A stretch of 64,000 bases of DNA, taken from assembly GCA_947246475.1 (NCBI GenBank), contig CAMXSH010000002.1, positions 1 to 64,000 of the forward strand. The letters run 5' to 3'. The notes under the pieces were generated by a model. It saw only the letters and a program-made list of their open reading frames with translations, did no database searches and was not told where the DNA came from. The stretch is from an uncultured Roseburia sp. Its GTDB lineage: Bacteria > Bacillota > Clostridia > Lachnospirales > Lachnospiraceae. Positions 2,831 to 64,000 of the stretch are shown here, piece after piece (positions within the stretch are counted from its first letter, which is position 1; every line of letters starts with the position of its first letter). Made by a program: the position numbers and the translations under genes.

Positions 2831-2884
2831 AAATAGAAAGTTGCAGGCAAGAATAAAGGCAGGGTTCAAATTGTCGCCGCCGGA

Positions 2885-3952
2885 TTAGCTCAGATTAGCA
2901 TTACCAGGCTGAGACGGAAGCGACAGGTTGGAGTCTGCCGTTGAATCGATCACAGGGAAACAGATCTGCATTTCAAATCCTTTTTGCCACTCTGAGTTTG
3001 CGTGCAAAGTGATATTCAGTTCCTTTGCCATTTCTTTGGCAAGATACAGCCCCATCCCAGTAGCTTTTTTTCTTTCTTTTCCGGAGTCGCCGGTAAATCC
3101 TTTTTCAAATAGAAAAGGCAGGTCGCAGCCGCGGACGCCGATGCCATTATCCCATACTGAGCAAATATAGCAGTCCTCTCCTTTAAGAGAGGTAAAATTC
3201 AATTCGGGTTCGTTTCCACAATATTTAATGGAATTACTGATGATCTGCCGCAGGAGGAAACGCAGACCTCTTTGGTCAGTATAAACCATATCATCAGACA
3301 TATAGAATTGGATCTGGAACTGCTTTTCTTCCAGCAACGGCTTATAATCCTCCAACACCTCTTCAATACACGGCAGGATATGGACAGGCTCAAACAGATA
3401 ATCTTTTCTTGTACTTTTTAACCTGGCATAGAACAGCATCTGGTCGATGGATTCCTGCATACGGTTCCTGATGTAATCAAGTTTACAACTTAAGGCTGTG
3501 GATAATTCATCTCTGTGGTTATCAAGAAGCAGGGTCAAAAGGGAGAGGGGTGTTTTCGTTTCATGGGTCCAGGCTTCTACGTACTCTTCATAATCGTCTA
3601 TCTGCATTTGCAGACCGTCATAAGCATTTTGTTTATCACGTAATGTTCTGCCCAGCTGACGAATAGATTCTTTCTGTGCTGGACAGAGATTTTTCAGCAG
3701 CAGCTCTTCCTGGTGTTCCTCCGGATTGCAGAGAAAATTAAGAAATGCCTGTTCTCCTTTTTGATCCCGGCGGACAAGCACGCCGCATGCTGCAGAGAAT
3801 AAAAGAATCGTGGCGAGCAGGATTGTGGTTATCATTGAATAAAATGCCTGTACATCGGCAATCCAAAGAAGCAGTGTGGCAAAGGCATCAACTCCCAGCA
3901 GAAGCAGGAGCCAGGGGATATACTGCAGGATATATTTAATTTTTGGTTTCAT
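2885..3952 (-). CDS. Sensor histidine kinase, BceS-like (intramembrane-sensing)
   Basis: Two N-terminal TM segments; EAWTHETKTPLSLL H-box; DNGIGV and GMGLYLAKEMA ATP-binding motifs. Confidence 0.87.
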   Translation of the reverse strand: MKPKIKYILQYIPWLLLLLGVDAFATLLLWIADVQAFYSMITTILLATILLFSAACGVLVRRDQKGEQAFLNFLCNPEEHQEELLLKNLCPAQKESIRQLGRTLRDKQNAYDGLQMQIDDYEEYVEAWTHETKTPLSLLTLLLDNHRDELSTALSCKLDYIRNRMQESIDQMLFYARLKSTRKDYLFEPVHILPCIEEVLEDYKPLLEEKQFQIQFYMSDDMVYTDQRGLRFLLRQIISNSIKYCGNEPELNFTSLKGEDCYICSVWDNGIGVRGCDLPFLFEKGFTGDSGKERKKATGMGLYLAKEMAKELNITLHANSEWQKGFEMQICFPVIDSTADSNLSLPSQPGNANLS

Positions 3953-4628
3953 TGTGCCCTCCCTTCCTGATAAGCCGATAGCCGATACCGCGGACAGGGA
4001 CGATTTGCTGGCACATCATAAGATTGGCCATAGTTTTTTTTAACCGTGTCAGATTGACCTGAAGTGCATTTTCGTCGATGAATTCAGAAGTTTCCCAGAT
4101 CGCCTGACATAGTTCTTTTTTTGTTACGATCTCATCTCCATGGCTCAAAAACACTTCAAGTATTTTTCCCTGATTTCTGGGGAGGACGACAGAGCGGTTA
4201 TGGATATACAGCGTATATGTCTGTTGATCCAAGAGGAATCCTGAGCCCTCAAGAAGATTTGACCTGCCCTCGTATCGTTTTATCACATTGGCCACACGTG
4301 CTAAAAGCCGTTCTTTTCTACATGGTTTCGTCAGATATTCGTCGGCACCCAGATCCAGTGCATGCAGCTCATCCTGTATCTGATCCCGGGAGGTAAGTAC
4401 AAAGACGGGGATTGAACTTTTTCGTTTTATTTCCCGGCAGATCTGAAAACCGCTCATGGCAGGCAGATTCAGATCCAGGAGGATCAGATCGGGAGAGAGG
4501 TACAGAAGCTGTTCTGCGACGTTGCTGAAATCTGTAATTTCTTCTGTTTTATAATCGGCTTTACGCAATATATCACATAATTCTTCTCTCATAAATCTTT
4601 CATCTTCTACGATCGCTATACATTTCAT
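3936..4628 (-). CDS. OmpR-family response regulator, BceR-like
   Basis: IVEDERFMREEL, LILLDLNLPAMSGF, winged-helix C-terminus; overlaps downstream kinase start by 17 bp. Confidence 0.88.
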   Translation of the reverse strand: MKCIAIVEDERFMREELCDILRKADYKTEEITDFSNVAEQLLYLSPDLILLDLNLPAMSGFQICREIKRKSSIPVFVLTSRDQIQDELHALDLGADEYLTKPCRKERLLARVANVIKRYEGRSNLLEGSGFLLDQQTYTLYIHNRSVVLPRNQGKILEVFLSHGDEIVTKKELCQAIWETSEFIDENALQVNLTRLKKTMANLMMCQQIVPVRGIGYRLIRKGGHNETKN

Positions 4629-4662
4629 GAAAATTTCCTCCCGTCATTTTTCAGCCACATAA

Positions 4663-6732: not shown

Positions 6733-7489
6733 TGCCTCCTCCCAGTTGGGCGATTACGTTCAGGATCCGTGAATAGAATTCCTGCTGGGATTCATAAGGA
6801 AGATCCCGGCGGAGTTCGTGGAAAATAATGCCATCCTGAATAAACAGGATACGCTTACAGTAACTGGCTGCATTGGTATCATGAGTCACCATAAGAATCG
6901 TAGAATTTTCATTTTCATTTAATCCAGTTAGTTTCTCCATTAAAGTTTTTGCATTTTTAGAATCCAGGGCACCTGTGGGCTCATCGGCGAGAATGATACC
7001 CGGATTCAGGATTAATGCTCTGGCTGCTGCAATTCTCTGTTTCTGGCCGCCCGACATCTGAGGGGGAAATTTATTTAAGACATCCTGAATTTCCAGATAA
7101 GACGTCAGCTGCTCCAAGCGTTTTTTGCTCTCGGACTCCGGCACTCTGTGAAGGGACAGGGGAAGCAGGATGTTTTCACGTCCCGTCATATGCTCTAGCA
7201 GTTCAAAATTTTGAAATAAATACCCGATCTTTTTTCCGCGGTAGTCTGCCAGTTCAGCCCCTTTGAGTGTTTGGATCTGTTTGCCGTTCATCTTGATCTG
7301 TCCGCTGTCAGGCTGGATCACGGCGGCGATACAATTCAACAATGTAGATTTGCCGGATCCACTGCTCCCCATTATGCCTAAAAATTCTCCGGGTATTACT
7401 TGAAATGTTATGCCATCCAATGCCTTAGTCTGGTTTTTGGATCGCCCATAATATTTTTTTAGTGATTCAATCTGAAGAACAGGTTCCAT
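6716..7489 (-). CDS. ABC transporter ATP-binding protein, BceA-like
   Basis: GSSGSGKSTLLN Walker A, MSGGQKQRIAAARAL signature, ILADEPTGALDSK; start MEPVLQIESLKKYYG preceded by ggaggctatcac. Confidence 0.9.
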   Translation of the reverse strand: MEPVLQIESLKKYYGRSKNQTKALDGITFQVIPGEFLGIMGSSGSGKSTLLNCIAAVIQPDSGQIKMNGKQIQTLKGAELADYRGKKIGYLFQNFELLEHMTGRENILLPLSLHRVPESESKKRLEQLTSYLEIQDVLNKFPPQMSGGQKQRIAAARALILNPGIILADEPTGALDSKNAKTLMEKLTGLNENENSTILMVTHDTNAASYCKRILFIQDGIIFHELRRDLPYESQQEFYSRILNVIAQLGGGSANVL

Positions 7490-7677
7490 GTGATAGCCTC
7501 CTTTGGTATTGATTTTTCTACTCTTATCATAACACAAGGTAAATCATTGTAATACTTACAGTTGGTGAAAGGAAAGTGTTTTATGATTCCATTAAGCATA
7601 ATCGTTGAAATTTTTTGTTTATTATGTTATATTTTATAGATAGAATTCTAAAATCTGTATCTGTGGAGGTAAGTAAA

Positions 7678-7860
7678 ATGGCTAAGTATGAAAGATTTAA
7701 GAAGGTTTATTCTCAAGGGGCAGTGAATATTGTGGAAATTTGGGTGGATAGTGAGACTGGTGTGAATTATGTATTTCATGCAAGTGGTTATGCTGGAGGA
7801 ATGTCACCGTTGTTAGGCAGGGATGGAAAACCAGTTATTTCTCCGATTGTAAATAGTTAG
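7678..7860 (+). CDS. Small DUF6440-like protein
   Basis: MAKYERFKKVYSQGAVNIVEIWVDSETGVNYVFHASGYAGGMSPLLGRDGKPVI; RBS ggaggt. Confidence 0.65.
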   Translation: MAKYERFKKVYSQGAVNIVEIWVDSETGVNYVFHASGYAGGMSPLLGRDGKPVISPIVNS

Positions 7861-8065
7861 ATTCTTAATGGATGAAAGAACGGATTTTGTTTATTAGGGA
7901 AAGGCATTTCCCATTCCGTCCAGCCGTTATCCTTTTTGATATCTATTATATCTATGTAAGATGCGTCTCAATGATGGGATTTATGTGACTAAATAAGTTG
8001 AATTACAACGGGAGGCGGAGGATGTGCACGATCTGGCAGAGTTATGTGCAAAACATAGGAACACT

Positions 8066-8285
8066 ATATCTTTCCCGTACATTAAGACTTTCTGACGAGT
8101 ATAAAGAAAAGTATATGGATGCATTTGGTATGGCAGATAAATAAATTATAAAATTTTTTTGTTGACTTTTTGAGATATCTTTCCCGTACATTAAGACTTT
8201 CTGACGAGTATAAAGAAAAGTATATGATGCATTTGGTATGGCAGATAAAAATAAATTATTAAAATTTTTTTGTTGACATTTTGAG
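8066..8285 (+). repeat. Tandem duplication, units of 109 and 111 bp
   Basis: atatctttcccgtacattaagactttctgacgagtataaagaaaagtatatg...gttgac(a/t)ttttgag occurs at 8066 and 8175 with minor indels. Confidence 0.93.
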
Positions 8286-8300
8286 TTTTGGTGATATACT
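8273..8300 (+). promoter_or_regulatory. Sigma-A-type promoter of the trp operon
   Basis: TTGACA (8273-8278), 16 nt spacer, TATACT (8295-8300). Confidence 0.75.
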
Positions 8301-8320
8301 GATAACAAATAACATAAACC

Positions 8321-8592
8321 GATGAACAAGAGTAGTAGGAACAAAATCATGTTTTCAGAGAGCTGTAGGTTGGTGTGATACAGCAGCATGTTTGTTGTGA
8401 ATGGACTTGTGAGGGCAGCTTGAAAGATGGATACATCTAGTAGACGCTGACGGAGACCTGAACCGTTATCTACAGGAGTGCATGATGGTGCATGATGAGT
8501 GGGTTATACTATGACCAAATTGGGTGGTACCGCAGAAGTAATTTAAGCTTTTGTCCCTTTTCCTTAACAGGATAGGGGACAAAAGCTTTTTT
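8321..8592 (+). ncRNA. T-box leader (Trp specifier), with terminator
   Basis: Stem I-like gaacaagagtagta..., specifier TGG in gaaTGGact (8402-8404), T-box aaattgggtggtaccgcag (8517-8535), terminator agcttttgtcccttttcc...ggggacaaaagctttttt; upstream of trpE. Confidence 0.92.
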
Positions 8593-8599
8593 CGCGTTA

Positions 8600-8735
8600 G
8601 CTTTGAGCCACGCATTCCAGGAAAGATATGTTCCTGCGTGCTGGCACGCAGAGGGACATATCTTTCCTGGAATATGCGGCGAATGCCGCGATGATGAGTG
8701 CCACGGAGTGGCACGAAGAATGCGGGGCTCAAAGC
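8600..8735. repeat. Nested palindromic element between T-box terminator and trpE
   Basis: Terminal inverted repeats ctttgagccacgcattc (8601-8617) / gaatgcggggctcaaag (8718-8734), one mismatch; internal 18-bp IR attccaggaaagatatgt (8614-8631) / acatatctttcctggaat (8656-8673) around ctgcgtgc-tg-gcacgcag; further hairpins gcggc-gaat-gccgc and gtgccac-gga-gtggcac. Confidence 0.88.
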
Positions 8736-8750
8736 GTAGAGAGAAGAGCA

Positions 8751-8801
8751 GCGGCGAATGCCGCGATGATGAGTGCCACGGAGTGGCACGAAGAATGCGG
8801 G
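8751..8801 (+). repeat. Second copy of 51-bp palindromic module (first copy 8676-8726)
   Basis: gcggcgaatgccgcgatgatgagtgccacggagtggcacgaagaatgcggg identical in both copies. Confidence 0.93.
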
Positions 8802-8854
8802 CGATTCCATAAAATGTACCTCATGAATCCAGACAAAGAATGGAGGAATGAAGG

Positions 8855-10336
8855 ATGAAAAATCAAGACAATGTGTTACAACAGATCAAAAGTTACGCCG
8901 GGGAGTATGATATAGTTCCCATCCGAAAAGAAATCTTCGCAGACATTATCACCCCCATCGGGCTGCTGCGAAAGATTGCAGCAAAAAACAAACGTTTTTA
9001 TCTGCTGGAAAGCGTGGAAGGAGGAGAGAAATGGGGGCGTTATTCTTTCCTTGGCTATGATCCGGTCATGCGGGTATCCTGTTATAAAAAGTTGGTGACA
9101 GTGGAAAAACAGGGAAAAAAGAAGACCATCGAGACAGAAGATTCCCTGGCTGCAGTCCGGGAGATATTGAAAGATTACCGGTCACCTAAGCTGGATGGAA
9201 TGCCGCCCTTTACCGGGGGATTCGTAGGGTATTTTGCCTATGCCATGATCGCCCACGCGGAGCCGAAGCTGGACATCAGGCGGGGAGAATTTAATGACTA
9301 TGATCTGATGTTGTTTGATAAAGTGATCGCCTATGACCAGTTGAAACAGAAAATTGTGGTGGTGGCGAATGTCAGCACCAAAGGAGATATAGAGAAACAT
9401 TATAAACAGGCAGAGAGGGAGATCGAAAATATGATTACCATGATCCGTTCTGATGTGGAGATAGAGGAGGAGCCTTTCTGTGAGAATGTGGAATTTATAT
9501 GCAATGTGACAAAAGAAGAATATGAAAATATTGTAGAGAAAACCAAAGAGTACATCCGGGAGGGAGATATTTTCCAGGCGGTAGTGTCAAGACGGTTTGT
9601 CTGCGATTATAAGGGAAGCCTCATCAATCCGTACCGGGTGCTGAGGACCACCAATTCCTCTCCATATATGGTATATATGAATATGGATGATCTGGAGATC
9701 ATGAGCACTTCACCAGAGACACTGGTGCGGCTGCAGGATGGAAGGCTTACGACATTTCCGGTGGCGGGCTCCAGACCCCGGGGCAAAAATGAGGAAGAGG
9801 ACAGCATGCTTGAAGAAGAGCTGCTCCTTGACGAAAAAGAATTGTCTGAGCACAATATGCTGGTGGATCTGGGACGGAATGATCTGGGGAGGATCTCGGA
9901 GTTTTCTTCGGTGGAGGTGACAGAATACAAGATGATCCATAAATATTCAAAGATCATGCATATCTGTTCCCAGGTGGAAGGAAATATCCGCCCAGACTGT
10001 GATGCACTGGACGCTGTCCGTTCTGTCCTGCCGGCGGGAACCCTTTCTGGTGCACCGAAGATCCGTGCCTGTGAGATCATTGATGAGCTGGAGAATGAGC
10101 CGAGAGGAATCTACGGCGGCGCACTGGGATATATCGATTTTAGCGGAGATCTTGATACCTGTATCGCCATCCGTATGGCGGTAAAAAAGAAGGGTAAAGT
10201 ATATGTCCAGGCAGGAGGAGGGATCGTGGCTGACAGCCAGCCCCATTTGGAATATGAAGAATCTGCCAACAAAGCAAAGGCAGTTATGGAAGCAATTAGG
10301 AACGGGCAAATGGATTCGTGCCCTCTGGTTAACTGA
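8855..10336 (+). CDS. trpE: Anthranilate synthase component I
   Basis: YSFLGYDPVM, STSPETLVRL, GTLSGAPKIRA, GGALGYIDFSGDLDTCIAIR; first gene of T-box trp operon. Confidence 0.96.
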   Translation: MKNQDNVLQQIKSYAGEYDIVPIRKEIFADIITPIGLLRKIAAKNKRFYLLESVEGGEKWGRYSFLGYDPVMRVSCYKKLVTVEKQGKKKTIETEDSLAAVREILKDYRSPKLDGMPPFTGGFVGYFAYAMIAHAEPKLDIRRGEFNDYDLMLFDKVIAYDQLKQKIVVVANVSTKGDIEKHYKQAEREIENMITMIRSDVEIEEEPFCENVEFICNVTKEEYENIVEKTKEYIREGDIFQAVVSRRFVCDYKGSLINPYRVLRTTNSSPYMVYMNMDDLEIMSTSPETLVRLQDGRLTTFPVAGSRPRGKNEEEDSMLEEELLLDEKELSEHNMLVDLGRNDLGRISEFSSVEVTEYKMIHKYSKIMHICSQVEGNIRPDCDALDAVRSVLPAGTLSGAPKIRACEIIDELENEPRGIYGGALGYIDFSGDLDTCIAIRMAVKKKGKVYVQAGGGIVADSQPHLEYEESANKAKAVMEAIRNGQMDSCPLVN

Positions 10337-10374
10337 ATGCAGCAGATGTGGTTGTTTGTGGAAAGGAGAGACAC

Positions 10375-11004
10375 ATGGTATTATTGATCGATAATTACGA
10401 CAGCTTTTCTTACAATCTGGTGCAGCTTGTGGGAGAACTGGATCCGGACATCCGGGTGGTGCGCAGCGATGAATGCAGGGTGGAGGAAATAAAAAAATGG
10501 GAACCTTCCCATATTATCCTTTCACCGGGACCGGGGCACCCAAAAGATGCAGGGGTGTGCGAGGAAGTGGTGCGAAAATTAAAAGGAATTGTTCCAATCC
10601 TTGGCGTATGTCTGGGACATCAAGGGATCTGTGAAGTATTTGGCGCGAAGATCTGCTATGCCGGACAGCTGATGCATGGGAAAAAAAGTAATGTCTGGAT
10701 CGAGCATACCGATGCCCTTTTTAGAGGGCTTCCTGAGCGGATCGATGTGGCGAGGTATCACTCCCTGATCGCAGACAGGGATACGATTCCCAGGGAGCTG
10801 AAAGTTATATCGGTGGACGACAGGAACGAAGTGATGGCGGTGAGACACCGGGAATACCCATTGTATGGGCTTCAGTTTCATCCGGAGTCGATTTTGACAC
10901 CGGATGGCAAAGTGATAATAGAGAATTTTTTGAAAATGAACGCATTTTCCAGGAAGGCAGGAGAAAGGATGGGTGACGGATATGATCAAAGAGGCATTGC
11001 ATGA
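10375..11004 (+). CDS. trpG: Anthranilate synthase component II (glutamine amidotransferase)
   Basis: MVLLIDNYDSFSYNLVQ, ILSPGPGHP, GVCLGHQ, LQFHPESILT. Confidence 0.95.
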   Translation: MVLLIDNYDSFSYNLVQLVGELDPDIRVVRSDECRVEEIKKWEPSHIILSPGPGHPKDAGVCEEVVRKLKGIVPILGVCLGHQGICEVFGAKICYAGQLMHGKKSNVWIEHTDALFRGLPERIDVARYHSLIADRDTIPRELKVISVDDRNEVMAVRHREYPLYGLQFHPESILTPDGKVIIENFLKMNAFSRKAGERMGDGYDQRGIA

Positions 11005-11992
11005 AGTGATAAATGGAAGAGATATAAATTATGATATGGCGAAAGAGGTAATGAAAGAAATTATGTCAGGAGAGGCTACTGACATACAGATGGCGTCTTA
11101 CCTGACAGCACTGCGGATGAAGGGAGAGACGATCACGGAGATCACAGCATCAGCGCAGGTGATGCGGGATATGGCGGCAAAACTTGAGCCTGCCTGCGAA
11201 GTACTGGAGATCGTGGGAACCGGCGGAGATGAGGCGGGAACGTTCAATATTTCCACTACGGCGGCATTTGTGATCGCAGCTGCCGGCATTCCGGTAGCAA
11301 AACATGGGAACCGCAGTGTTTCCAGTAAAAGCGGGGCAGCAGATGTACTGGAAAGCCTTGGCGCGGATATTATGATCGATGTGGAGAAAAACCGGAAAGT
11401 ACTAGACAACACAAAGATGAGTTTTTTATTTGCCCAGTATCATCATTCTTCCATGAAAAATGTGGGACCGGTCAGAAAAGGGATGGGGGAGAGAACGATC
11501 TTTAATATTCTCGGTCCGCTGACTAACCCGGCGGGGGCGGCGATACAGCTTCTCGGTGTATATGACCGGTCGCTGGTAGAAAAGCTGGCAGAGGTGCTCA
11601 GCAATCTTGGGGTAAAACGCGGTATGGTGGTGTGTGGAAGCGATGGTCTGGATGAGATCACGTTGACGGGCCCTACCCACTGCTGCGAGATCCGGGAGGG
11701 GAAACTCACTTCCTTTGACATCACTCCGGAACAGTTTGGTTTGAAGCCTTGTCAGAAGGAAGAACTGGTGGGGGGCGCACCGGAGGAAAATGCCCAGATC
11801 ACAAGAGATATCCTTTCCGGAAAGGAAACTGGGGCAAAGCGGGACATTGTTCTTTTAAATGCCGGCGTGTCGATATATCTTGGTACACCAGGAATTACGA
11901 TGGAGGAGGGAGTAGGAAAGGCAGCAGAGGTGATAGACTACGGTAAGGCGCTGGCTAAAATGGAAGAGTTTATAAGTGCCAGCAGACAGTGA
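10973..11992 (+). CDS. trpD: Anthranilate phosphoribosyltransferase
   Basis: EIVGTGGDEAGTFNIST, KHGNRSVSSKSGAADVLE, FNILGPLTNPA; GTG start at 10973 or ATG at 10982. Confidence 0.96.
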   Translation: MTDMIKEALHEVINGRDINYDMAKEVMKEIMSGEATDIQMASYLTALRMKGETITEITASAQVMRDMAAKLEPACEVLEIVGTGGDEAGTFNISTTAAFVIAAAGIPVAKHGNRSVSSKSGAADVLESLGADIMIDVEKNRKVLDNTKMSFLFAQYHHSSMKNVGPVRKGMGERTIFNILGPLTNPAGAAIQLLGVYDRSLVEKLAEVLSNLGVKRGMVVCGSDGLDEITLTGPTHCCEIREGKLTSFDITPEQFGLKPCQKEELVGGAPEENAQITRDILSGKETGAKRDIVLLNAGVSIYLGTPGITMEEGVGKAAEVIDYGKALAKMEEFISASRQ

Positions 11993-11999
11993 GGTGAAC

Positions 12000-12791
12000 A
12001 TGATTTTAGATGAAATAGCGGCAGCCACTAAAAAACGAGTGGAAGCCTGCAAACAGAAGATTTCACTGGAGGAGATGAAGCGTAAGGCCCGCTCGCTGCC
12101 TGTGAGGGCTGAATTTCCCTTTGAGAACCCCCTGCAAAGCGGAAGGGCAGCATTTATCTGTGAGATCAAGAAAGCTTCACCGTCGAAAGGGATCATAGCA
12201 GAAGAGTTTCCTTATGTGGATATTGCCAGAGAATATAAAGAAGCGGGGGCAGACAATATATCTGTACTGACGGAACCGGACTATTTTATGGGCAGTACCA
12301 AGTACCTGGAAGAAATCTATCGGAACGTGGATTTGCCACTTCTGCGAAAAGACTTTATCATCGACGAATATATGATCTATGAGGCGAAGGTGATCGGAGC
12401 CAGTGCGGTACTGCTGATCTGCTCACTTCTTCCGGAGACGGTACTCAGGGAGGGGATCAGTTTGTGTGAAAGCCTGGGACTGTCCGCGCTGGTAGAAGTC
12501 CATGATGAGGAAGAGATCCGCAGGGCAGTCCATGCCGGAGCCCGGATCATAGGCGTCAATAACAGGGATCTGAAGACATTTCAGGTGGATATAACGAATT
12601 GCCTGCGGCTTCGGGAAAGGATACCAGAAGATATATTGTTCATAGCAGAGAGCGGGATCCACACCAGAGAAGATATCAAGGCGCTGGAGCGAGGCGGTGT
12701 GAATGGTATTTTGATCGGTGAGACGCTGATGCGCAGCGCCGATAAGAAAAAAACACTGGCAGAGCTGCGGGGAATGGATGTGGGTAAATGA
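12000..12791 (+). CDS. trpC: Indole-3-glycerol phosphate synthase
   Basis: CEIKKASPSKGII, LRKDFIIDEYMIYEA, IGVNNRDLKTFQVD, IAESGI. Confidence 0.96.
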   Translation: MILDEIAAATKKRVEACKQKISLEEMKRKARSLPVRAEFPFENPLQSGRAAFICEIKKASPSKGIIAEEFPYVDIAREYKEAGADNISVLTEPDYFMGSTKYLEEIYRNVDLPLLRKDFIIDEYMIYEAKVIGASAVLLICSLLPETVLREGISLCESLGLSALVEVHDEEEIRRAVHAGARIIGVNNRDLKTFQVDITNCLRLRERIPEDILFIAESGIHTREDIKALERGGVNGILIGETLMRSADKKKTLAELRGMDVGK

Positions 12792-13420
12792 AAGTAAAGA
12801 TTTGTGGTATCCGCAGAGAGAAGGATGTCCTGTATCTCCATGAGGCAATGCCGGATTATGCCGGATTTATCTTTGCGGATACAGAAAGAAGAGTGACAGA
12901 ACATCAGGCCGCTCTCCTGAGACGGCAGCTGGATCCGCGGATTCAAGTATTTGGCGTATTTGTCAATGCGCCGGTAGAAGCCGCAGCAGCACTTGCTGGT
13001 AGGGGGATTATTGATGTGATACAGCTGCATGGGGATGAGACGGAAGGATATATCCGGACGCTCCGCAGTATGACAAAGGCACCTGTGGTCAAAGCGGTAC
13101 GGGTGAAAAATCCAGAGGATATCCTTCAGGCTGACCAGCTGCCGGTGGACCATCTGCTTTTGGATACGTATCACAGAGGGCAGTATGGAGGCACCGGGGA
13201 GACTTTTTCCTGGGAACTGATCCCGGAAGAATTGGAGCATTCCTATCTGCTGGCAGGAGGGCTGAATGTCGAAAATGTCTGTCAGGCACTGTCTGTGGCA
13301 GAAACAAAAGGCCACTGTATCGGAGTCGATGTGAGCGGCGGTGTTGAGACAAATGGAGTAAAAGATAAAGTAAAAATAAAAAAATTAATAGAAACAGTGC
13401 GTTCTTACCGGACGCAGTAG
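12788..13420 (+). CDS. trpF: Phosphoribosylanthranilate isomerase
   Basis: MKVKICGIRREKDV, GFIFADTERRV, IQLHGDE, LAGGLNVENV, GVDVSGGVE. Confidence 0.95.
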   Translation: MKVKICGIRREKDVLYLHEAMPDYAGFIFADTERRVTEHQAALLRRQLDPRIQVFGVFVNAPVEAAAALAGRGIIDVIQLHGDETEGYIRTLRSMTKAPVVKAVRVKNPEDILQADQLPVDHLLLDTYHRGQYGGTGETFSWELIPEELEHSYLLAGGLNVENVCQALSVAETKGHCIGVDVSGGVETNGVKDKVKIKKLIETVRSYRTQ

Positions 13421-13437
13421 AAGGGGAGGACTAGAAG

Positions 13438-14622
13438 ATGTCGAAAGGACGTTTTGGTGTTTATGGCGGACAGTATATACCGGAGACGCTGATGAACGCT
13501 GTGATCGAGCTGGAGGAAGCATATAACAAATATAAGGAAGATCCGGAATTTGTCCATGAATTTCAGGAATTACTGGCAAATTACGTGGGGAGGCCGTCGA
13601 TTCTGTACTTTGCGGACCGGATGACAAAAGAACTTGGCGGTGCAAAGATCTACCTGAAACGGGAGGATCTGAACCATACCGGATCCCATAAGCTGAATAA
13701 TGCACTGGGGCAGGCGCTGCTGGCAAAGAAGATGGGAAAGACCCGTTTGATCGCTGAGACAGGAGCCGGGCAGCACGGGGTGGCGACAGCCACCGTCGCG
13801 GCGCTTCTTGGCATGGAATGCGAAGTATTTATGGGAAAAGAGGATACGGAGCGCCAGGCATTGAATGTATTCCGTATGGAGCTTTTAGGAGCGAAGGTCC
13901 ACGCTGTGACCAGCGGCACCCAGACATTAAAGGATGCTGTGAATGAGACGTTGAGAGAGTGGACGAACCGCATTGAGGACACTCATTATGTGATCGGATC
14001 GGTAATGGGACCGGCGCCATTTCCAGAGATCGTAAGAGATTTTCAAAGCGTCATCGGAAAAGAAATAAAAGAGCAGCTGATGCAGATAGAAGGAAAGCTG
14101 CCGGATGCGGTCATTGCCTGCGTAGGAGGCGGCAGCAATGCCATGGGGGCTTTTTATGAGTTTATCCCGGATGAGACGGTGCGGCTGATCGGCTGTGAGG
14201 CGGCGGGGCACGGTGTGCATACAGATAAAAATGCGGCTACGATTGCCAATGGCAGCATGGGAGTCTTCCATGGAATGAAGTCTTATTTCTGCCAGGATGA
14301 ATACGGTCAGATCGCGCCAGTATATTCCATCTCTGCTGGGCTGGATTATCCGGGGATCGGACCAGAGCACGCATACCTGCATGATACGAAGAGGGCAGAA
14401 TATGTTCCGATTACAGATGAAGAGGCGGTCTCAGCTTTTGAATATCTGTCCAGGACAGAGGGGATCATCCCTGCCATCGAGAGCTCCCATGCTCTTGCTT
14501 ATGCGAGGAAACTGGCGCCCACGATGGCAAAGGACCAGATCATTGTAGTGAATATTTCAGGCAGAGGTGACAAAGATGTGGCGGCGATCGCCAGATACAG
14601 GGGGGTTGATATTTATGAATAA
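13438..14622 (+). CDS. trpB: Tryptophan synthase beta chain
   Basis: [60 protein letters not shown]. Confidence 0.97.
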
Positions 14623-54976: not shown

Positions 54977-55065
54977 ATGCTGCCAGGGTTAAAAAGGTCA
55001 AAAAGCCTTTTCCCCCGACAGTGCAAAACGTTATGACTATTATCATTATTAGGAGGATATAACAC

Positions 55066-55446
55066 ATGAAAAATTATACTATTACAGTAAATGGAACCGT
55101 ATATGATGTATCAGTGGAAGAAAAAACAGGAGCAGCTGCTCCGGCAGCAGCACCGGCGGCTCCAGTAGCACCAGCTCCAGCACCAGCAGCACCGAAGCCG
55201 GCACCAGCACCAGCAGCGGGCGGTTCAGCTGGTTCTGTCCAGGTGGCAGCACCGATGCCTGGTAAGATCCTGGCTGTGAAAGCAAGTGTGGGAGCAGAGG
55301 TGAAAAAAGGAGATGTGGTTCTTCTTCTCGAGGCGATGAAGATGGAAAATGAAGTGGTGGCACCTCAGGATGGAAAGATCGCAAGCATAAACGTGAACTC
55401 CGGTGATATGGTTGGAGCCGGCGACGTATTAGCTACAATGGACTAA
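55066..55446 (+). CDS. Biotin carboxyl carrier protein (1.3S-type)
   Basis: MKNYTITVNGTVYDVSVEE, Ala/Pro linker, PMPGKILAVKASVGAEVKKGDVVLLLEAMKMENEVVAPQDG. Confidence 0.93.
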   Translation: MKNYTITVNGTVYDVSVEEKTGAAAPAAAPAAPVAPAPAPAAPKPAPAPAAGGSAGSVQVAAPMPGKILAVKASVGAEVKKGDVVLLLEAMKMENEVVAPQDGKIASINVNSGDMVGAGDVLATMD

Positions 55447-55472
55447 TCACTAAATAACTGGAGGTAAAAAAG

Positions 55473-56591
55473 ATGGAAGTTTTACAGAACCTTCTCCATC
55501 AGACTGCATTTGCAAATGGAACGGTTGACTGGCGCAGTTATGTGATGATACTGGTTGCTTTTGTGTTTCTCTATCTGGCGATCAAAAAGGGTTATGAGCC
55601 TCTTTTGCTTGTACCCATTGCATTCGGTATGCTGCTTGTCAATATCTATCCGCAGATCATGGAGCCTGGCGGACTGTTGGAATATTTCTTTAAACTGGAT
55701 GAATGGAGTATCCTGCCATCCCTGATCTTCCTCGGTGTAGGAGCAATGACAGATTTCGGTCCTCTGATCGCAAACCCCAAAAGTTTTCTTCTGGGAGCGG
55801 CGGCGCAGTTCGGTATCTTTGCCGCATACCTGATGGCGATCGTGATGGGATTCAACGGCATGGCGGCGGCGGCGATCTCGATCATCGGAGGCGCGGACGG
55901 TCCGACCTCGATCTTCCTGGCAGGAAAACTGGGGCAGAAGGAACTTATGGGACCAATCGCCGTGGCGGCATATTCTTATATGTCACTGGTGCCGATCATT
56001 CAGCCGCCGATTATGAAACTGTTTACTACAAAAGAAGAACGAATGATCAAAATGGACCAGCTCCGTCCTGTATCGAAGGTGGAGCGGATTCTTTTCCCGA
56101 TCATCGTAACCACGGTGGTATGTCTGATCCTGCCGAGTACAGCACCTCTTGTAGGTATGCTGATGCTTGGTAACCTGTTCAAGGAATCCGGTGTAGTTGG
56201 ACAGCTGACAGAGACAGCATCCAACGCACTGATGTACATCGTTGTTATCCTGCTGGGTACATCTGTAGGGGCAAAAACCAGTGGCGAGAACTTTATCGAC
56301 TTCGATACGCTGAAGATCGTCGCCCTTGGTCTGATCGCTTTTGCAGTGGGGACAGCCGCGGGAGTCTTATTTGGCAAGCTGATGTGTAAGCTGTCAAAAG
56401 GTAAGATCAATCCTCTCATTGGTTCCGCTGGAGTTTCCGCTGTTCCGATGGCAGCCAGGGTATCCCAGAAGGTGGGGGCAGAAGCAGATCCTACCAACTT
56501 CCTGCTGATGCACGCCATGGGACCAAATGTAGCCGGAGTAATCGGTACAGCAGTAGCGGCCGGTGTATTCATGGCAATCTTTGGAGTCTAA
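55473..56591 (+). CDS. Na+-translocating decarboxylase beta subunit (OadB/MmdB family)
   Basis: [83 protein letters not shown]. Confidence 0.94.
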
Positions 56592-56643
56592 TGCGAAATG
56601 ATGTATAGCGCAAATAAAATGCGCAAAATATATTTAGGAGGAA

Positions 56644-58065
56644 ATGAAAATGGCAGATAATAAAGCAAAGAAGCCGATTAAAATAACAGAAACAATCCTT
56701 CGTGACGCTCATCAGTCCCTGATTGCCACCCGTATGACGACGGAGCAGATGCTTCCGATCATCGACAAGATGGATAAAGTGGGCTACCATGCAGTAGAGT
56801 GCTGGGGAGGAGCTACCTTTGATGCGTCCCTTCGTTTCTTAAAAGAAGATCCATGGGAGAGACTTCGTAAGCTGAGAAAGGGCTTTAAGAACACGAAACT
56901 GCAGATGCTGTTCCGTGGACAGAATATCCTTGGATACAATCACTATGCAGATGATGTGGTAGAGTACTTTGTGCAGAAATCACTGGCAAATGGTATTGAT
57001 ATTATCCGTATTTTTGACTGTCTCAATGACATCCGTAATCTGGAGACAGCGGTAAAAGCTGCAAATAAGGAAAATGGACACGCACAGATCGCCCTTTCCT
57101 ATACCCTTGGTGATGCGTATACCATGGATTATTGGAAAGATATGGCGAAGAAAATTGAGGATCTCGGTGCAAAATCCCTTTGCATCAAAGATATGGCAGG
57201 TCTTCTCACTCCGTATGAGGCGACAGAGCTTGTCACTGCTCTGAAAGAGTCCGTAGATATTCCGATCGATCTTCATACCCATTATACATCCGGTGTGGCT
57301 GCCATGACCTATATGAAGGCAGTTGAGGCGGGCTGTGATATCATTGACACGGCGATGTCACCCTTCGCACTGGGCACCAGCCAGCCGGCGACGGAAGTTA
57401 TGGTGGAGACCTTTAGGGGAACTCCGTATGACACGGGACTTGACCAGAATCTTCTGGCAGAGATTGCAGAGTATTTCCGCCCAATGCGTGAAGAGGCGCT
57501 GCAGAGTGGTCTGATGAATACAAAGGTTCTTGGGGTAAATATTAAAACACTGATGTATCAGGTACCAGGAGGTATGCTCAGTAATCTTGTATCCCAGCTC
57601 AAAGAGATGGGACAGGAAAGCAAGTATCAGGAAGTGCTGGAAGAAGTACCCCGCGTGCGGAAAGATTTCGGTGAGCCTCCATTGGTTACACCGTCATCCC
57701 AGATTGTAGGTACTCAGGCAGTTTTGAATGTTGTTTCCGGTGAGAGATATAAGATGGTGACGAAGGAATCCAAGAAGCTTCTGTCCGGTGAGTTTGGTCA
57801 GACAGTGAAGCCTTTTGATCCGAAAGTCCAGAAAAAATGTATCGGCGATACAAAACCGATCACCTGCCGTCCGGCGGATTTGATCAAACCGCAGCTGGCA
57901 GATCTTGAAAAGGAGATGTCCCAGTGGAAGCAGCAGGATGAGGATGTACTTTCCTATGCGCTGTTCCCACAGGTGGCTACAGAGTTCTTTAAGTACCGTG
58001 AGGCGCAGAAGACAAAAGTGGATGCGACGCTGGCAGATAAAGAAAATAAAGTATATCCGGTGTAA
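56644..58065 (+). CDS. Oxaloacetate decarboxylase alpha / pyruvate carboxylase subunit B-like carboxyltransferase lacking biotinyl domain (5S-type)
   Basis: ITETILRDAHQSLIATRMTTEQMLP, LRFLKEDPWERLRKLRKGFKNTKLQMLFRGQNILGYNHYADDVV, LHTHYTSGVAAMTYMKAVEAGCDIIDTA; ends without MKM biotin motif. Confidence 0.93.
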   Translation: MKMADNKAKKPIKITETILRDAHQSLIATRMTTEQMLPIIDKMDKVGYHAVECWGGATFDASLRFLKEDPWERLRKLRKGFKNTKLQMLFRGQNILGYNHYADDVVEYFVQKSLANGIDIIRIFDCLNDIRNLETAVKAANKENGHAQIALSYTLGDAYTMDYWKDMAKKIEDLGAKSLCIKDMAGLLTPYEATELVTALKESVDIPIDLHTHYTSGVAAMTYMKAVEAGCDIIDTAMSPFALGTSQPATEVMVETFRGTPYDTGLDQNLLAEIAEYFRPMREEALQSGLMNTKVLGVNIKTLMYQVPGGMLSNLVSQLKEMGQESKYQEVLEEVPRVRKDFGEPPLVTPSSQIVGTQAVLNVVSGERYKMVTKESKKLLSGEFGQTVKPFDPKVQKKCIGDTKPITCRPADLIKPQLADLEKEMSQWKQQDEDVLSYALFPQVATEFFKYREAQKTKVDATLADKENKVYPV

Positions 58066-58082
58066 TATCTGGATTGGAATAC

Positions 58083-58131
58083 AAGAAAGACAGTGTGAAG
58101 GCAGAAATGCTTTTGCATTGTCTTTCTTTTT
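58083..58131 (+). terminator. Rho-independent terminator of decarboxylase operon
   Basis: aagaaagacagtg ... cattgtctttctt (13 bp, one G:U) plus T-run. Confidence 0.82.
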
Positions 58132-58236
58132 CCCGGTCAGAAACTTAATATTCATGTAAAAATAATATTTTTGTAACAAAATGACGATAGAAATAGTGTA
58201 AGGTAATACTTGGGAAAAAGATCTGGGGGGATAAAA

Positions 58237-59685
58237 ATGTATAGAAAACTCTATTTATTGATATTGTGCCTGGGGGTTTTAAGACTTGGGGGCTGTGGCG
58301 GGGAGTTTGCCGGCATTTCCGGAGACGGAGCTGTGTCCTGGGAGCGGTCTCCGGTGGTGCGGTGTCGGGAGAAGCGGTCAGCGGACAGGCGGTAGTCAGA
58401 GAGGGATCGCAAAATCCCCAAGGTGAGTTCTGCAATGACTGGAACGTTTATTATAGCAAGTATGATGATGAGGAGGATTATGGAAAACCATTATCACTGA
58501 ACGGAATTGGAAAGATCACTCGGAGCGCAAAACTGTAATAAAAGGTGCGGCTGTGATCTGCTATGTAGATAATGAGTGGATTTATTTTACCGGTGAGCGT
58601 GAGGTGATGAAAGAGGATAAAGAGGTCGATCAGTTTTGGCGGGCACCGATGGAACCTGTCGGGGATCACAGACAGGTAAACTGGAAAAAGAAAGAGCTGA
58701 TCCTGGAAGATGGGGATCGCATATGGGGGCCGTCAGGACACGGTACCTATATTTTCTGTAATGGCAGATGGATCGCTTATATTAGCAAGGGAGGTGAATT
58801 AAAAAGATATGATGTGGAAAAGAAAAAATTTGTTGATGAGAAAGTGAATGATGTTTACACGATGGATGGAAATGGAAGGGGTGCATTCATCCGCAGCTAC
58901 CAGGCTGAAAAGGATTCTGGTGAAGATTATATCCTGGATGGAGATACAGGAGAATTGATCCCCATTCCCGATCAGCCAGAAGGTTATAACAATGTGTTTT
59001 TTGAGGAAGAAGGGATATTTTTTACAGACCCAGGCTGTTATAATAATGAAGAGGATGTTTACACATATCTGGAAAAAGAAGTGGTGATGTATCATTATCC
59101 CGACAGCTCCCATCCCCAGGGATGGCGTGAGATACTGATCTCTCCGGGAGAGATCGAGGAGCTGCTGGCAAAGGAAGGGTTTGCAGAGCAGATAAAAAAG
59201 CGGAGGATTCCTGGTGGGGTACGACAAACGTATTTGTCAGGGAGAAGATCCTCTATCTGCAATTGGAATTCCGATGGAAGAAAGAGAAGGTGGTCTGCCG
59301 GGATATGAAGATACTTCGTTTTGACATGGAGAAAAAAGGAAGTCTTATGGTGGACCAGGAACTGACCCAGTGTCTGAAAAATCCGGAGGAAAATCAGAAA
59401 GTGTTCCGGAAATACTGGTCAAATGTGCGTGGTTCTGATAAGGCTGTGTTTTTCAGCCGCGGTTTATGCGTGGATATGACAGCGGATCATGCTTTCTTTT
59501 TACTGGCGGATGAAAAAACGGCGGATGATCAGCTGGTAAGTTATGCTTTTGAGACAGGAGAGACAAAGGTACTGGATAAAAAAGATGATGAATGGTATCT
59601 GCCGTACTGTAATGATGAAAGGTATCAGTATCATCCCACAGAGGAACTGCAGATGTATATAAATTATATGCCAAATAATGGTTAG
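58237..59685 (+). pseudogene. Lipoprotein paralog copy A, frameshifted (about 3 indels)
   Basis: Lipobox LGGCGGEF; SGGAVSGEAVSGQAV linker in another frame; downstream pieces (ICYVDNEWIYF..., LRFDMEKKGSLMVDQELTQCLKNPEEN..., YINYMPNNG) align by eye to intact copies B and D. Confidence 0.8.
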
Positions 59686-59701
59686 AAGGGAAAGGTATGA
59701 G

Positions 59702-61048
59702 ATGAAAAAGGGGTTATGGTTAATGCTTATTGCCTGTTTTATAATGGGCACATTATCGGGCTGCGGCGGAAAATCTGCCGTTTTTTCCGGTTCTGGGGCA
59801 GTCTCCGGCGGCGGAGTGTCCGATCTGTCGGCCACAGCTCCTCCAGTGCAGGAAAAAGCTGGTACATTTTGCAATAACTGGTATGTATATTACCAGGACG
59901 GGGTTGAGCTGGTAGAGAGACCATTAGCAGGAGGGACTGGAAGAAGGACAGCCGTTGCGTATCTTTCTTATGTGTGTTACGCAGACAATGACTGGGTTTA
60001 TTATGTCAAAGAGAATATAAACGATGACCGCTACCAGATCTGGCGGGCGCCGGTGATCCAGTCGGAGGGCTGGCGGTTACGTGTAGACAGGGAAGAGCTG
60101 GTGCTTGAGGATAAACAGGGATTTAAGGAGCAGCCGGGGGGAGTGTGGTGCGACGGAAAATATATTGTGTATATAAGCGATGAAACATATAAGTACAGGG
60201 AATATGATATCCAGGAAAAAAGATATAATGACACTGGCAGACTGGAAAAATGTAAGGAGATCAGCAACGTTGCCATCTGTGGGAAAAATGTTCTCATCTC
60301 TGCCTGGGATGACGGTTTGCAGCAGAAAAGACTGGGATCGGATGAGATTCAGCAGATACATAAAGAGCATCCATATTATATAACGGCGACATGTACTGAC
60401 CTGTTTTGGGCGGATGGATTCCAGGAAATAAAAGATATCTGGCGGTATCCAGTGGACGGGCAGGCACAATGCCTGATCACGGTCCAGGAGATCCGAAAGC
60501 TGCTAAAAAAAGAGGGATACTCCCGCTGTGCCCTGTGTGACAGCCATAAATACCTTGAGCTTGGGATGTTTGTCCGGGCGCACCGTCTGTACATCCAGAT
60601 TCATATGCGTCATGATAAGAAACCATGCTGTAGCCATATTGTGGTAATCAGTAAAGATTTGGATGCCGATGGCGTCCTGCAGGTAGAGAAAGAACTGGCA
60701 CAATGTCTGAATCCTTTGGAAGACATTGGGAAAGAGGTCTGGAAGATGGGCAGAAATGGAGGCAGGGACGTCACCTATATGAACCGTGGTCTCTGTGTGA
60801 TGATGACGGAGGATACATGCTTGATGTATCTTGAGGACAAGGAAAAGAAAAGGAACCGCTGGGCATGTTATGATTTCAAGACAGGCGGCCTCCGTTTTGT
60901 GTCGGAAAAAGATGCCAGCGGGTCTCTGATGTATTCTGACCGGTACCATACTTTATACAATCTGAGACTGAAACGGGAGATACTGGATATGAATGCGACG
61001 GTTTACAATTACATAAATGACGTACTGCCCAATAATTATGATTTTTAG
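59702..61048 (+). CDS. Lipoprotein paralog copy B (intact)
   Basis: MKKGLWLMLIACFIMGTLSGCGG lipobox; VCYADNDWVYY, WRAPV, WCDGKYIVYIS, RGLCVMMTEDTCLMYLE, ACYDFKTG, VLPNN. Confidence 0.85.
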   Translation: MKKGLWLMLIACFIMGTLSGCGGKSAVFSGSGAVSGGGVSDLSATAPPVQEKAGTFCNNWYVYYQDGVELVERPLAGGTGRRTAVAYLSYVCYADNDWVYYVKENINDDRYQIWRAPVIQSEGWRLRVDREELVLEDKQGFKEQPGGVWCDGKYIVYISDETYKYREYDIQEKRYNDTGRLEKCKEISNVAICGKNVLISAWDDGLQQKRLGSDEIQQIHKEHPYYITATCTDLFWADGFQEIKDIWRYPVDGQAQCLITVQEIRKLLKKEGYSRCALCDSHKYLELGMFVRAHRLYIQIHMRHDKKPCCSHIVVISKDLDADGVLQVEKELAQCLNPLEDIGKEVWKMGRNGGRDVTYMNRGLCVMMTEDTCLMYLEDKEKKRNRWACYDFKTGGLRFVSEKDASGSLMYSDRYHTLYNLRLKREILDMNATVYNYINDVLPNNYDF

Positions 61049-61059
61049 GAGGAATTGGC

Positions 61060-62086
61060 ATGAAAAAGAAAACAGGATATATTTTATGTATTTTTCTGGC
61101 GGCTTGTTTTATATGAATGACGTACTGCCCAATAAGAACCGGGTGAATATCCGGAAGGAAGAACACCTTCTGACAGACAGGGAGGGGATTGATGCCTTTG
61201 ACGGTGCTTATTGTGATGGAAGGTATCTGTTGTATGTTACAGAGGATGGAGATGGAACATACAAAAAATACGACCTAAAGAAAAAAGTATGTCGGAAATT
61301 TAGATAAAGATAAAAGAAACGTTAACAGCCAGATCCTCTCTGTGGTAGATGGATATGTCTACCTGAGGATGGGAGAAGAGGAAGAAGAGGCATTTTACTG
61401 GCAGAAACTGGAGGAAGCCAAAAATCATTGATGAGATGGTCTGGGGAATGGCACATATTGCGATAGGAAAGGATGTGTACTATTCTGAGGAATATGCCAT
61501 GCCCTTTACCATTATGAAATATAATGTGGAGGATGGAAGCCGGGAGGAAGCTGTGTCGGAAAAGCGTTTGGATGAGCTGTTTGAGAAGAACAAGCTTCTG
61601 ACGGAAAGCGAGAGATATGAGAAGAATGACCTCGCAGGAATGTTTGTAAGCGGGAACCGTCTGTATATGCAGTTTCAGACACACTGGGATGATGAAAAGG
61701 GAGTGACATTCGACAAAATGATCCTGGTTTATCTGGAACCGGAAAAAGGAGGAGAGCTCCACTATGATAAAACACTGACGGAATATCTCGCCTATGATAA
61801 GCCCCAGGAGGAATGGTTTGATGGAACGTTTTTGAACGAAGCATATTGCAGCCGGGGAAGGTGTGTGGAGATGACGGATGAAAGATGTTATATGGAAGTC
61901 CATAATCCGGAGAGTGACAAAAACACGCTGGCCTGTTATGATTTTAAGAGCAGGGAGTTTATGTATCTGACAGAAGCTGATCTGGATTGGCACCTCCCTT
62001 ATTTTACAGCGCCTTTTTTAAATATTGAAAGGTTTCTGGGAGGAGAAGAGCCGTTGGAGGGGCGGGAGTACGACTGGCCATATTAA
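61060..62086 (+). pseudogene. Lipoprotein paralog copy C, internally deleted and frameshifted
   Basis: MKKKTGYILCIFLAACFI* then in other frames YCDGRYLLYVTEDGDGTYKKYDLKKKV, SRGRCVEMTDERCYMEV, LACYDFKSREFMYLTEADLDWHLPYF. Confidence 0.82.
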
Positions 62087-62122
62087 GATTATGAATAAGG
62101 CATTCGCGGAGGGAGGATAAAA

Positions 62123-63502
62123 ATGAGAGGGAAATTACACAGAATGAAAGGACTGATGCTGTCAATAGCCATTGCTGCGGGGACCTGTGCCGGCTGTGGC
62201 GGTGAGTTTTCTGGTTTTTCCAGGGAAAGGCCGGCTTCCGGCGGGGCAGTTTCCGGAGAAGCGGTCTCTGGCGGAGCAGTGAAGCCGGTGGGAAAAGACA
62301 GATCAGAGAACTATTCTTACTGCAACGAGAAAAACCTGTATTATGTGGGGAATGACACAGGAACACTGGTAGAGCATAACCGTCAGTCCGGAAAAGAACG
62401 CAGGCTGCCTGTCAAAGGGATATCGAAGATCTGTTATGTGGATGAAGACTGGGTGTATTATGAGGTTTTCAGCAGTGATGGGGGGCAGGGTGAAAATCAG
62501 ATATGGCGTGCTCCGGTGAGAAAGGAAAATCAGTGGAAACTGGATGAAACAGTGGCAGAATTGATGCTGGAGATGAATCCAGAAAACAGCTGGTGTCGTC
62601 GTATCCTGTGTAATGGCAGTTATATTGTCTGCGATGAACCAGAAGATGGCAGGCAAACCCTTAAATTATATAATATCTGGAAAAAACAGTATGAACCCAG
62701 TGGCGTGGGTTCTGGCTTTTTATCTGTAGAGGGGGTGTTCAGGGAAAGTGTGGTCATAACATGTGACAGCGGGCTGGTGGAGAAAAAGCTAGGGTCAGAT
62801 ACCATAAACCTGATCCGGGGGGAAGAAAGATCCCACATAATTTACACAGCATCCGATGTTCCGAATAATGAATTATTTTGGATGGAGAGGGAGGGCGATG
62901 AGAAAAACGAAGTCCTCTGGCGGTATCGGCTGGAGGATGGAAAAAAAGAAAAACTTTTCGATCTTGCCCAGATCCGCCAGCTTCTGAAAGGATGGGGAGC
63001 ACTGGAAGACTGTGAATGTGAAACGTCAGCGGGACATGAAATCTATCTGAAGAACCTGTTTATACGAGGTGATCATCTGAATGCACAGTTTTGGATACTG
63101 GGAGGACACGATGTGCCCGAATGCCGGAATATGATCGTGATCAGCAAAAAGCGGGATGGTTCCGGTGAGTGGGAGTGGGAGAAAGAAATAAACGAATATC
63201 TTCACAACCCGGAGGCAGACCAGAAGCTATTTGAGAAAATTACTGGAAGTGGGTCTGAGTGCGAGTGTATTTACCGAAGCCGGGGCATTGTTGTGAGTAT
63301 GGCAGAGGACATCTGCCTGATGTATCTGGAGCATACCGGAGAAAAGAAAAACCAGCTTGCCAGTTATGACTTTCGGACAGGAACGTTCAAATGGCTGACA
63401 AAACAGGACTGGCAATGGTGGCTGCCCTATTATAAGAGTGGCGCGGGCCTGAACACACATGGTTATTCAGAGTATATGCCAAATAATTTTGAAATGGAAT
63501 AA
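62123..63502 (+). CDS. Lipoprotein paralog copy D (intact)
   Basis: AAGTCAGCGGEFSGF lipobox; SGGAVSGEAVSGGAV linker; ICYVDEDWVYY, IWRAPV, LCNGSYIVCDE, RGIVVSMAEDICLMYLEHTGEKKNQLASYDFRTG, YMPNNFEME. Confidence 0.85.
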   Translation: MRGKLHRMKGLMLSIAIAAGTCAGCGGEFSGFSRERPASGGAVSGEAVSGGAVKPVGKDRSENYSYCNEKNLYYVGNDTGTLVEHNRQSGKERRLPVKGISKICYVDEDWVYYEVFSSDGGQGENQIWRAPVRKENQWKLDETVAELMLEMNPENSWCRRILCNGSYIVCDEPEDGRQTLKLYNIWKKQYEPSGVGSGFLSVEGVFRESVVITCDSGLVEKKLGSDTINLIRGEERSHIIYTASDVPNNELFWMEREGDEKNEVLWRYRLEDGKKEKLFDLAQIRQLLKGWGALEDCECETSAGHEIYLKNLFIRGDHLNAQFWILGGHDVPECRNMIVISKKRDGSGEWEWEKEINEYLHNPEADQKLFEKITGSGSECECIYRSRGIVVSMAEDICLMYLEHTGEKKNQLASYDFRTGTFKWLTKQDWQWWLPYYKSGAGLNTHGYSEYMPNNFEME

Positions 63503-63551
63503 ACAAGCCGCTATTCCATCAAATCCAATGAAAGAAAGGAGTCTTTGCCAG

Positions 63552-64000
63552 ATGCAAAAGGTAAAACAGTTATTAATGGATCATTTTAATGAAGATACGC
63601 TGCGCGCCGTCGTCAGCAATGGAAGAAAAAAACAGCTTTCCAAAAAAATTCTGTTCCGTCCTTTTCTGGAGAAGGATCATCTGTTGTTTCAGCGGGAGGA
63701 ATACCGTGGACAGCAGATATTTCACAAGAACATGGACAAGGAGACTGCTGTAGAACGAATTTGCAGATATCTCTTGGAGGACTACAAACAGCTGGATCTC
63801 CAGTGCCAGGACAGAAGTTTTTCTGTTCTTGTAAGCAAAAAAGGAAAGTCTACCATCAAAGAGCAGCGTCAGCAGATGATTAAGAAGATCGAGCTCTCCC
63901 ACAACCGCAGAAAACACTATATTCTGGAGACAGGGCAGGCGATTCCTTTTCTTGTGGATCTGGGAGTGCAGACAGAAGACGGCAGGATCGTGGATAAGAA
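63552..64000 (+). CDS. Probable class I SAM-dependent methyltransferase, N-terminal part (3' truncated by window)
   Basis: Frame open to window end: MQKVKQLLMDHFNEDTLRAVVSNGRKKQLSKKILFRPFLEKDHLLFQREEYRGQQIFHKNM...SHNRRKHYILETGQAIPFLVDLGVQTEDGRIVDKK; RBS aaaggagt. Confidence 0.6.
   Translation, partial: MQKVKQLLMDHFNEDTLRAVVSNGRKKQLSKKILFRPFLEKDHLLFQREEYRGQQIFHKNMDKETAVERICRYLLEDYKQLDLQCQDRSFSVLVSKKGKSTIKEQRQQMIKKIELSHNRRKHYILETGQAIPFLVDLGVQTEDGRIVDK

Follow-up and report, generated by a model that had tools for sequence, protein, structure and literature searches.

Why does a gut bacterium keep four related lipoprotein genes in a row, two of which are broken? We examined this question in a 64,000-nt stretch of DNA (the window) from an uncultured Roseburia sp., which corresponds to positions 1-64000 of contig C2 (CAMXSH010000002.1) in a 2.66-Mb draft genome (GCA_947246475.1, here G000). 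An earlier note on this DNA had described a tandem array of four lipoprotein paralogues, A to D, alternately decayed and intact, and the open reading frames (ORFs), coordinates and order of the copies were as it described, with homology far above chance. The array is a genuine gene accordion that looks active, built from an unannotated family of propeller lipoproteins restricted to one genus, and we consider it probable that it evolves by birth and death of surface-anchored beta-propellers.

Window ORFs and Pfam placed the four tandem paralogues between an oadA-like carboxylase gene and an S-adenosylmethionine (SAM) methyltransferase gene, all on the plus strand like the other window features given below. 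Copy A (58237..59685) is a pseudogene with an A-type signal peptide and lipobox and a body orthologous to gene Y of G001, the nearest relative among the compared genomes; its DNA is 90% identical to the intact G001 orthologue and the family profile matched all its pieces. Copy B (59678..61048) is an intact lipoprotein ORF of 456 amino acids (aa) (lipobox LSGC, Cys codon 59762-59764), although its real start is probably the ATG at 59702, because the G001 orthologue begins there. Copy C (61060..62086), aligned to the full-length G001 orthologue (end of contig C142 plus start of C73), is a pseudogene in which a 5' deletion removed the lipobox and linker, with further frameshifts. Copy D (62123..63502) is an intact lipoprotein ORF of 459 aa, which structure prediction models as a seven-bladed beta-propeller. 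An N-terminal signal peptide with a lipobox Cys was found in A, B, D and all the full-length relatives, and is deleted in C. The motifs that had been listed as common to A-D are shared in general, except that C lacks both the lipobox and the YVCYADNDWVYY/IWRAPV core (deleted); the MPNN/LPNN end holds only in part, as the LPNN of C derives from a copied B end. Profile E-values were 1e-137 for B, 1e-150 for D and 8e-9 to 5e-48 for the pieces of A and C, and no further family member was found in the window genome.

A leader with a likely promoter region (AATAATATTTTTGTAACAAAAtGACGATAGAAATAGTGTAAGGTAATACTTGG; 58150..58236) lies 5' of the first array gene. It is kept in G001, G017 and G020, more weakly in G023, and is missing at the empty site of G016. 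The promoter scan gave no consensus sigma-70 match in this leader, the promoter predictions of the promoter/terminator scan were not above those for shuffled sequence, and Rfam detected no RNA element within 55000-64000. The linker of D is of the AVSGG pentapeptide type and is encoded by a 15-bp repeat tract (62234..62284), with a repeat number that differs among copies. Tandem Repeats Finder found no long repeat in the array; it missed this tract because the repeats are too degenerate.

The number of copies at this site differs strongly between species, each represented by one genome. The gene order oadA - methyltransferase - ylxM - ffh is conserved across relatives; in the window, the left flank is the oadA-like carboxylase subunit (56644..58065; Pfam PYC_OADA and HMGL-like, and synteny) and the right flank the methyltransferase (Methyltransf_32; 63552..64000, running on to contig position 64742 and followed by ylxM and ffh; Pfam and synteny). 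Between oadA and the methyltransferase we counted four copies in G000 (two broken), four in G017 (one a remnant), two in G020 (one broken), at least nine in G001 and 11 in G023, all open in the latter. The site is empty in G016, and nine other genomes have no copies there. In G033, five copies were found on the opposite side of the methyltransferase. Head-to-tail lipoprotein paralogues thus range from 0 to 11 copies at a single orthologous site, which supports the rapid turnover and gene loss that the earlier note had proposed.

Two further observations concern the same site. In G001, an IS-type (insertion sequence) DDE transposase gene lies directly 5' of the array head (C142, 586-1719), so the left flank of the array on that contig is not oadA. 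The G024 site has no copies, but an unrelated insert of about 11 kb (C20:61500-76500, 2990-13917), which includes an FtsX-type permease and a histidine kinase; because this insert occupies the same position, it suggests a general hot spot for variable genes between oadA and the methyltransferase.

The array gives a direct view of recombination between paralogues, with joints at the lipobox. In a sliding comparison, gene starts and gene bodies had different closest relatives: the leader and signal peptide of D were closest to G001 E and its body to G001 D, the leader of A was closest to G001 X and its body to G001 Y, and G020 gene 1 combined a leader closest to G017 gene 1 with a body closest to G017 gene 3. 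A one-switch fit placed the joint of D at nt 67-81 of the gene (722 of 755 informative sites; lipobox Cys codon at 73), which corresponds to 62189..62203 in the window (codon 62195-62197). The joint of A was placed at nt 57-69 (717 of 773 informative sites; codon at 58), that is, 58293..58305 (codon 58294-58296), and that of G020 gene 1 at nt 54-60 (codon at 58). All three resolved joints are within about 20 nt of the Cys codon in genes of about 1.4 kb; by our estimate, three random joints would fall within about 30 nt of it about once in 10^5. Since the joints cluster at this codon, signal peptides and bodies appear to have been swapped by unequal recombination.

Similar patterns were observed in other species. 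The N-terminal DNA of G023 genes 7 and 8 is 93% identical and their bodies share 31% amino-acid identity, the corresponding values for G034 C30 are 99% at the seam and 32% in the bodies, and the conserved block of G023 genes 9 and 10 begins at the lipobox. In G017 gene 2r a B signal peptide is fused to a C tail, with the joint further downstream. Copy C of the window bears a deletion junction (61111..61133) in which some 20 bp duplicate the 3' terminus of B (found at 61015-61037), as seen in window DNA and in the alignment to G001 C. The fragmented state of both the window genome and G001 would be compatible with an assembly artefact in the metagenome bin; the broken copies, however, carry several unrelated lesions per gene, the blocks of identity at the chimaeric joints measure only about 14-27 bp, and joints of the same type occur in independently assembled genomes. 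Misassembly is unlikely because of the multiple lesions and the short blocks, and we regard an artefact as scarcely credible.

The mechanism that we propose takes the gene as its unit, each with its own start, signal peptide, lipobox, AVSGG linker and propeller body. Following a single conserved leader, these units are arranged head to tail at near-operon distances and are presumably co-transcribed. Unequal recombination, probably of RecA type, would take place in the short lipobox-coding DNA block common to the copies and would give a body the leader and signal peptide of a different gene. As the block has the same position in every gene, whole units would be gained or lost in frame, with new leader/body combinations. 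Copies also decay through frameshift, as A and C are doing now. A single lipobox event would account for both the absence of the sister-species genes E-H and the origin of D.

We also considered the gene-conversion reservoir of the earlier note, in which a single copy is expressed and broken copies act as silent donors for antigenic variation. Tract-like exchange between paralogues does occur: G001 E (C73, 723-2222) and F (2191-3693) are 91-98% identical in their 3' part and 71-78% in the middle of the gene, as though a further gene-conversion tract lay within the body. Nevertheless, the copies of the relatives are nearly all complete, with their own start and lipobox and near-operon spacing, no single privileged expression site is evident beyond the shared leader, and the paralogue bodies in the window share too little DNA for easy conversion. 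With complete copies arranged head to tail, nothing points to silent donors that feed one expression site, and a reservoir in the strict sense is very improbable.

The history of the array argues against serial duplication within the window genome, which the earlier note had also suggested. The window paralogues share only about 20-35% amino-acid identity in their bodies, and in the tree A, B and D have separate orthologues in G001, G017 and G023; because they are old paralogues with orthologues of their own, the window array is the contracted remnant of a larger one. The tree contains old orthologue lines (A/Y, B and D) together with species-specific expansions (nine genes in G023, five in G033 and six in G014). 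G017 is the outgroup to G000 and G001, according to synonymous divergence (dS) in the methyltransferase (0.52 vs 0.29). Since G017 has an F-type gene and a D orthologue, G000 is likely to have lost E-H, most simply by a single deletion that also created the chimaeric D. G017 also carries a Y-type body behind an A-type leader, so the additional X unit of G001 is a derived insertion, and G020 lost the A body and intervening material. Both contraction (window D; G020) and expansion (G001) were therefore seen by outgroup comparison.

We located the lesions of A and C by alignment to the intact orthologues of the sister species: B and D are full length, and A and C are broken by multiple lesions each. 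Copy A has a 14-bp insertion at 58336 within the AVSGG-coding 15-bp repeat tract, a net frame change near 58479 and a poly-A run short by one base near 59194, and its predicted product is a 52-aa lipopeptide. Most of the 5' end of copy C is gone (lipobox, linker and first propeller part), and a further 2 bp are missing near 61280 and 8 bp at 61419. Phase variation through repeat slippage in the AVSGG tract of A is unlikely, because A has two further frame lesions. The alternation of broken and intact copies has no visible meaning.

Selection differs among the copies. The comparison of B with its G001 orthologue gave a ratio of nonsynonymous to synonymous divergence (dN/dS) of 0.23, which indicates purifying selection, and most orthologue pairs gave 0.2-0.4. 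The body of D had a dS of 0.08 vs 0.29 in the adjacent methyltransferase and in B (about 4-fold lower); its proportion of synonymous differences (pS) was 0.062 vs 0.241 in the methyltransferase, and its ratio of nonsynonymous to synonymous proportions (pN/pS) was 1.14 vs 0.19. In particular, 67 replacement and 15 synonymous differences were found in the D body (Fisher p 9e-9 vs the methyltransferase, 2e-5 vs B). The low dS of D points to sequence exchange between the species lineages after their split; G017 gene 3 and G020 gene 1 likewise had a dS of 0.07 vs 0.16-0.38 in their flanking genes. Antigen-like diversification, as envisaged in the earlier note, is possible in view of the ratio and low dS of D, although neutrality was not exceeded.

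The same values bear on neutral turnover, in which recombination-prone repeats under weak constraint come and go with no selected diversity. This would agree with the pN/pS of D, with two of four copies decayed and with the empty site in a close relative. On the other hand, all full-length genes are open in the 11-copy G023 array and in the 5-copy G033 array, B and most orthologue pairs are constrained as given above, and the family is kept in 25 of 39 species, so we find neutral turnover unlikely.

Several points weigh against the gene accordion reading. The dN/dS of D is near 1 and not above it (its pN/pS does not differ from 1; binomial p 0.78), and diversifying selection and relaxed constraint would fit this ratio equally well. 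Turnover is seen only between species. Among the genomes compared, several are fragmented assemblies from metagenomes, and in G001 the array runs over two contigs. The AlphaFold models have medium confidence and were built on 7-sequence alignments.

We then assigned the proteins to a fold and a family. AlphaFold2 gave D a predicted local distance difference test score (pLDDT) of 66.7 and a predicted TM-score (pTM) of 0.68, and gave the remote paralogue G001 F a pTM of 0.60. Both models are all-beta, and we interpreted their strand lists as seven four-stranded blades. Foldseek matched the two models to solved propellers (2gop, 3.7e-8; 3s25, 5.4e-7; tricorn, 6e-8); for EUBREC_1955 (3s25) the E-values were 5.4e-7 for D and 2.3e-5 for G001 F, with modest TM-scores of 0.3-0.6. 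The beta-propeller-like repeat guessed at in the earlier note is thus consistent with both the prediction and the matches. None of Pfam, NCBIfam, PADLOC and PHROGs assigned the proteins above cut-off: D matched DUF5050 (PF16472) at 18.3 bits (E 0.0014; gathering cut-off 27 bits), B had no DUF5050 match, and weak DUF5050 matches (E up to 0.01) were found in 10 of 46 family members. An hhalign comparison with three DUF5050 proteins of the genus gave a probability of 88.6% (E 2.6e-6) over 156 columns. Judged by these models and profiles, the family would be a divergent DUF5050-like propeller lipoprotein, outside DUF5050 by the curated cut-off. It resembles the DUF5050 propellers (PF16472; EUBREC_1955, PDB 3s25; TsgL of T7SSg, PMC11217815) in the predicted seven-bladed propeller and a weak sequence relation, and differs from them in size, the AVSGG linker, the tandem arrays and the restriction to one genus. 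The window genome also encodes a DUF5050-type lipoprotein outside the array (C63:1-8000, 3150-3998), with 282 aa and 30.7 bits, above the cut-off.

The distribution search used the 46-member profile with E up to 1e-10; for other genera, one genome each was taken and the best five candidates per genome were scored. Of the 39 species in the genus of the window, 25 carried these lipoproteins; at that depth, none of 298 other genera of the same bacterial family did. The carriers include G001 (21 profile matches), G005 (19), G023 (18), G014 (15), G018 (13) and G062 (10), and arrays of four to eleven genes occurred at more than one chromosomal site. Non-array members in G001 (C15, 1990-8085) and G023 (C61, 4755-11214) adjoin a secreted protein some 1100 aa long; the G001 version matches the C-terminal region of the M26 IgA1-type metallopeptidase, and this neighbourhood looks conserved between the two genomes. 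No relative of D was found in the phage collections, plasmid collections or viral contigs, and hence no sign of phage or plasmid carriage. The literature search found no paper that names this protein family.

Across the 46 full-length family members of the genus, column identity averages 24%, and no residue other than the lipobox Cys and one Tyr is invariant. There are no conserved catalytic residues, and such near-total variability disfavours a role as an enzyme. The proteins may instead be surface binders that have diversified, as receptors, decoys or immunity-like proteins, against changing partners, for instance phages, rivals or host antibody. Alternatively, they could form an ordinary dosage or specificity family, whose surface propellers bind nutrients, glycans or peptides and expanded with diet, the losses being adaptive streamlining. 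Propeller lipoproteins with binding roles do exist (BtuG was among the Foldseek matches), and the purifying selection on B would suit such a role; yet no transporter, glycan-degradation or regulator gene lies beside the examined arrays or singletons, and the very low conservation of the family is unusual for a fixed ligand, which leaves this explanation improbable.

Another explanation is an immunity repertoire in which each lipoprotein neutralises one variant of an antibacterial toxin of rivals, as TilA, EsaG and TipC do, and arrays track the toxins met. Although a lipoprotein location is suited to neutralising a toxin outside the membrane, propellers of about 450 aa are large for immunity proteins. 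Neighbour annotation detected no toxin-like gene, LXG protein or type VII locus beside the arrays examined, and the toxin search, confined to the LXG class, was negative in G000 and most array genomes, with weak matches only in G028 and G030 among family carriers. The genetic behaviour is nonetheless the same as that of csa1/lpl, esaG and tipC arrays (PMC7360770, PMC10730906, PMC9484751): like the type VII secretion immunity arrays esaG and tipC, and TilA (PMC9484751, PMC10730906), these are strings of non-identical paralogues gained and lost by recombination at short conserved blocks. On balance an immunity repertoire seems rather unlikely.

The closest genetic parallel to the gene accordion proposed here is given by the Csa1/Lpl (DUF576) tandem lipoproteins of S. 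aureus, which have been described as gene accordions (PMC7360770) and share the tandem lipoprotein paralogues and the variable copy number. As far as the work of Tsuru and Kobayashi (2008) is summarised in PMC9484751, the csa1/lpl recombination unit also runs from inside one gene, across the intergenic region, into the next; according to that summary its conserved block is central and about 130 nt long, whereas the seam here is a 5' lipobox/linker block with a switch interval of 7-15 nt. Variation here is seen between species rather than within a clone. Sequence and fold are unrelated (no Pfam or NCBIfam match to DUF576 in B, D or any of the 46 members), and the host is a commensal gut Lachnospiraceae.

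Gene accordions of surface lipoproteins have so far been studied mainly in pathogens, and if Roseburia-type gut commensals have such a system, with as many as about 20 family copies in one genome, it would be a hidden source of surface variation among strains and species. The array offers testable recombination seams and a conserved chromosomal site at which copy number can be read directly. More tentatively, it may belong to a genus-specific surface-diversity system in a dominant group of gut commensals, with the lipobox codon itself as the shuffling point. In such a system the signal peptide and the promoter-proximal position would be recombined with different bodies from a pool of propellers; bodies would also pass from one species to another through homologous recombination, after which positive selection, exerted by phage, host antibody or the toxins of rivals, would make them diverge. 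Finally, the flanking methyltransferase gene has a single in-frame stop, at differing positions, in G013, G031 and G021.

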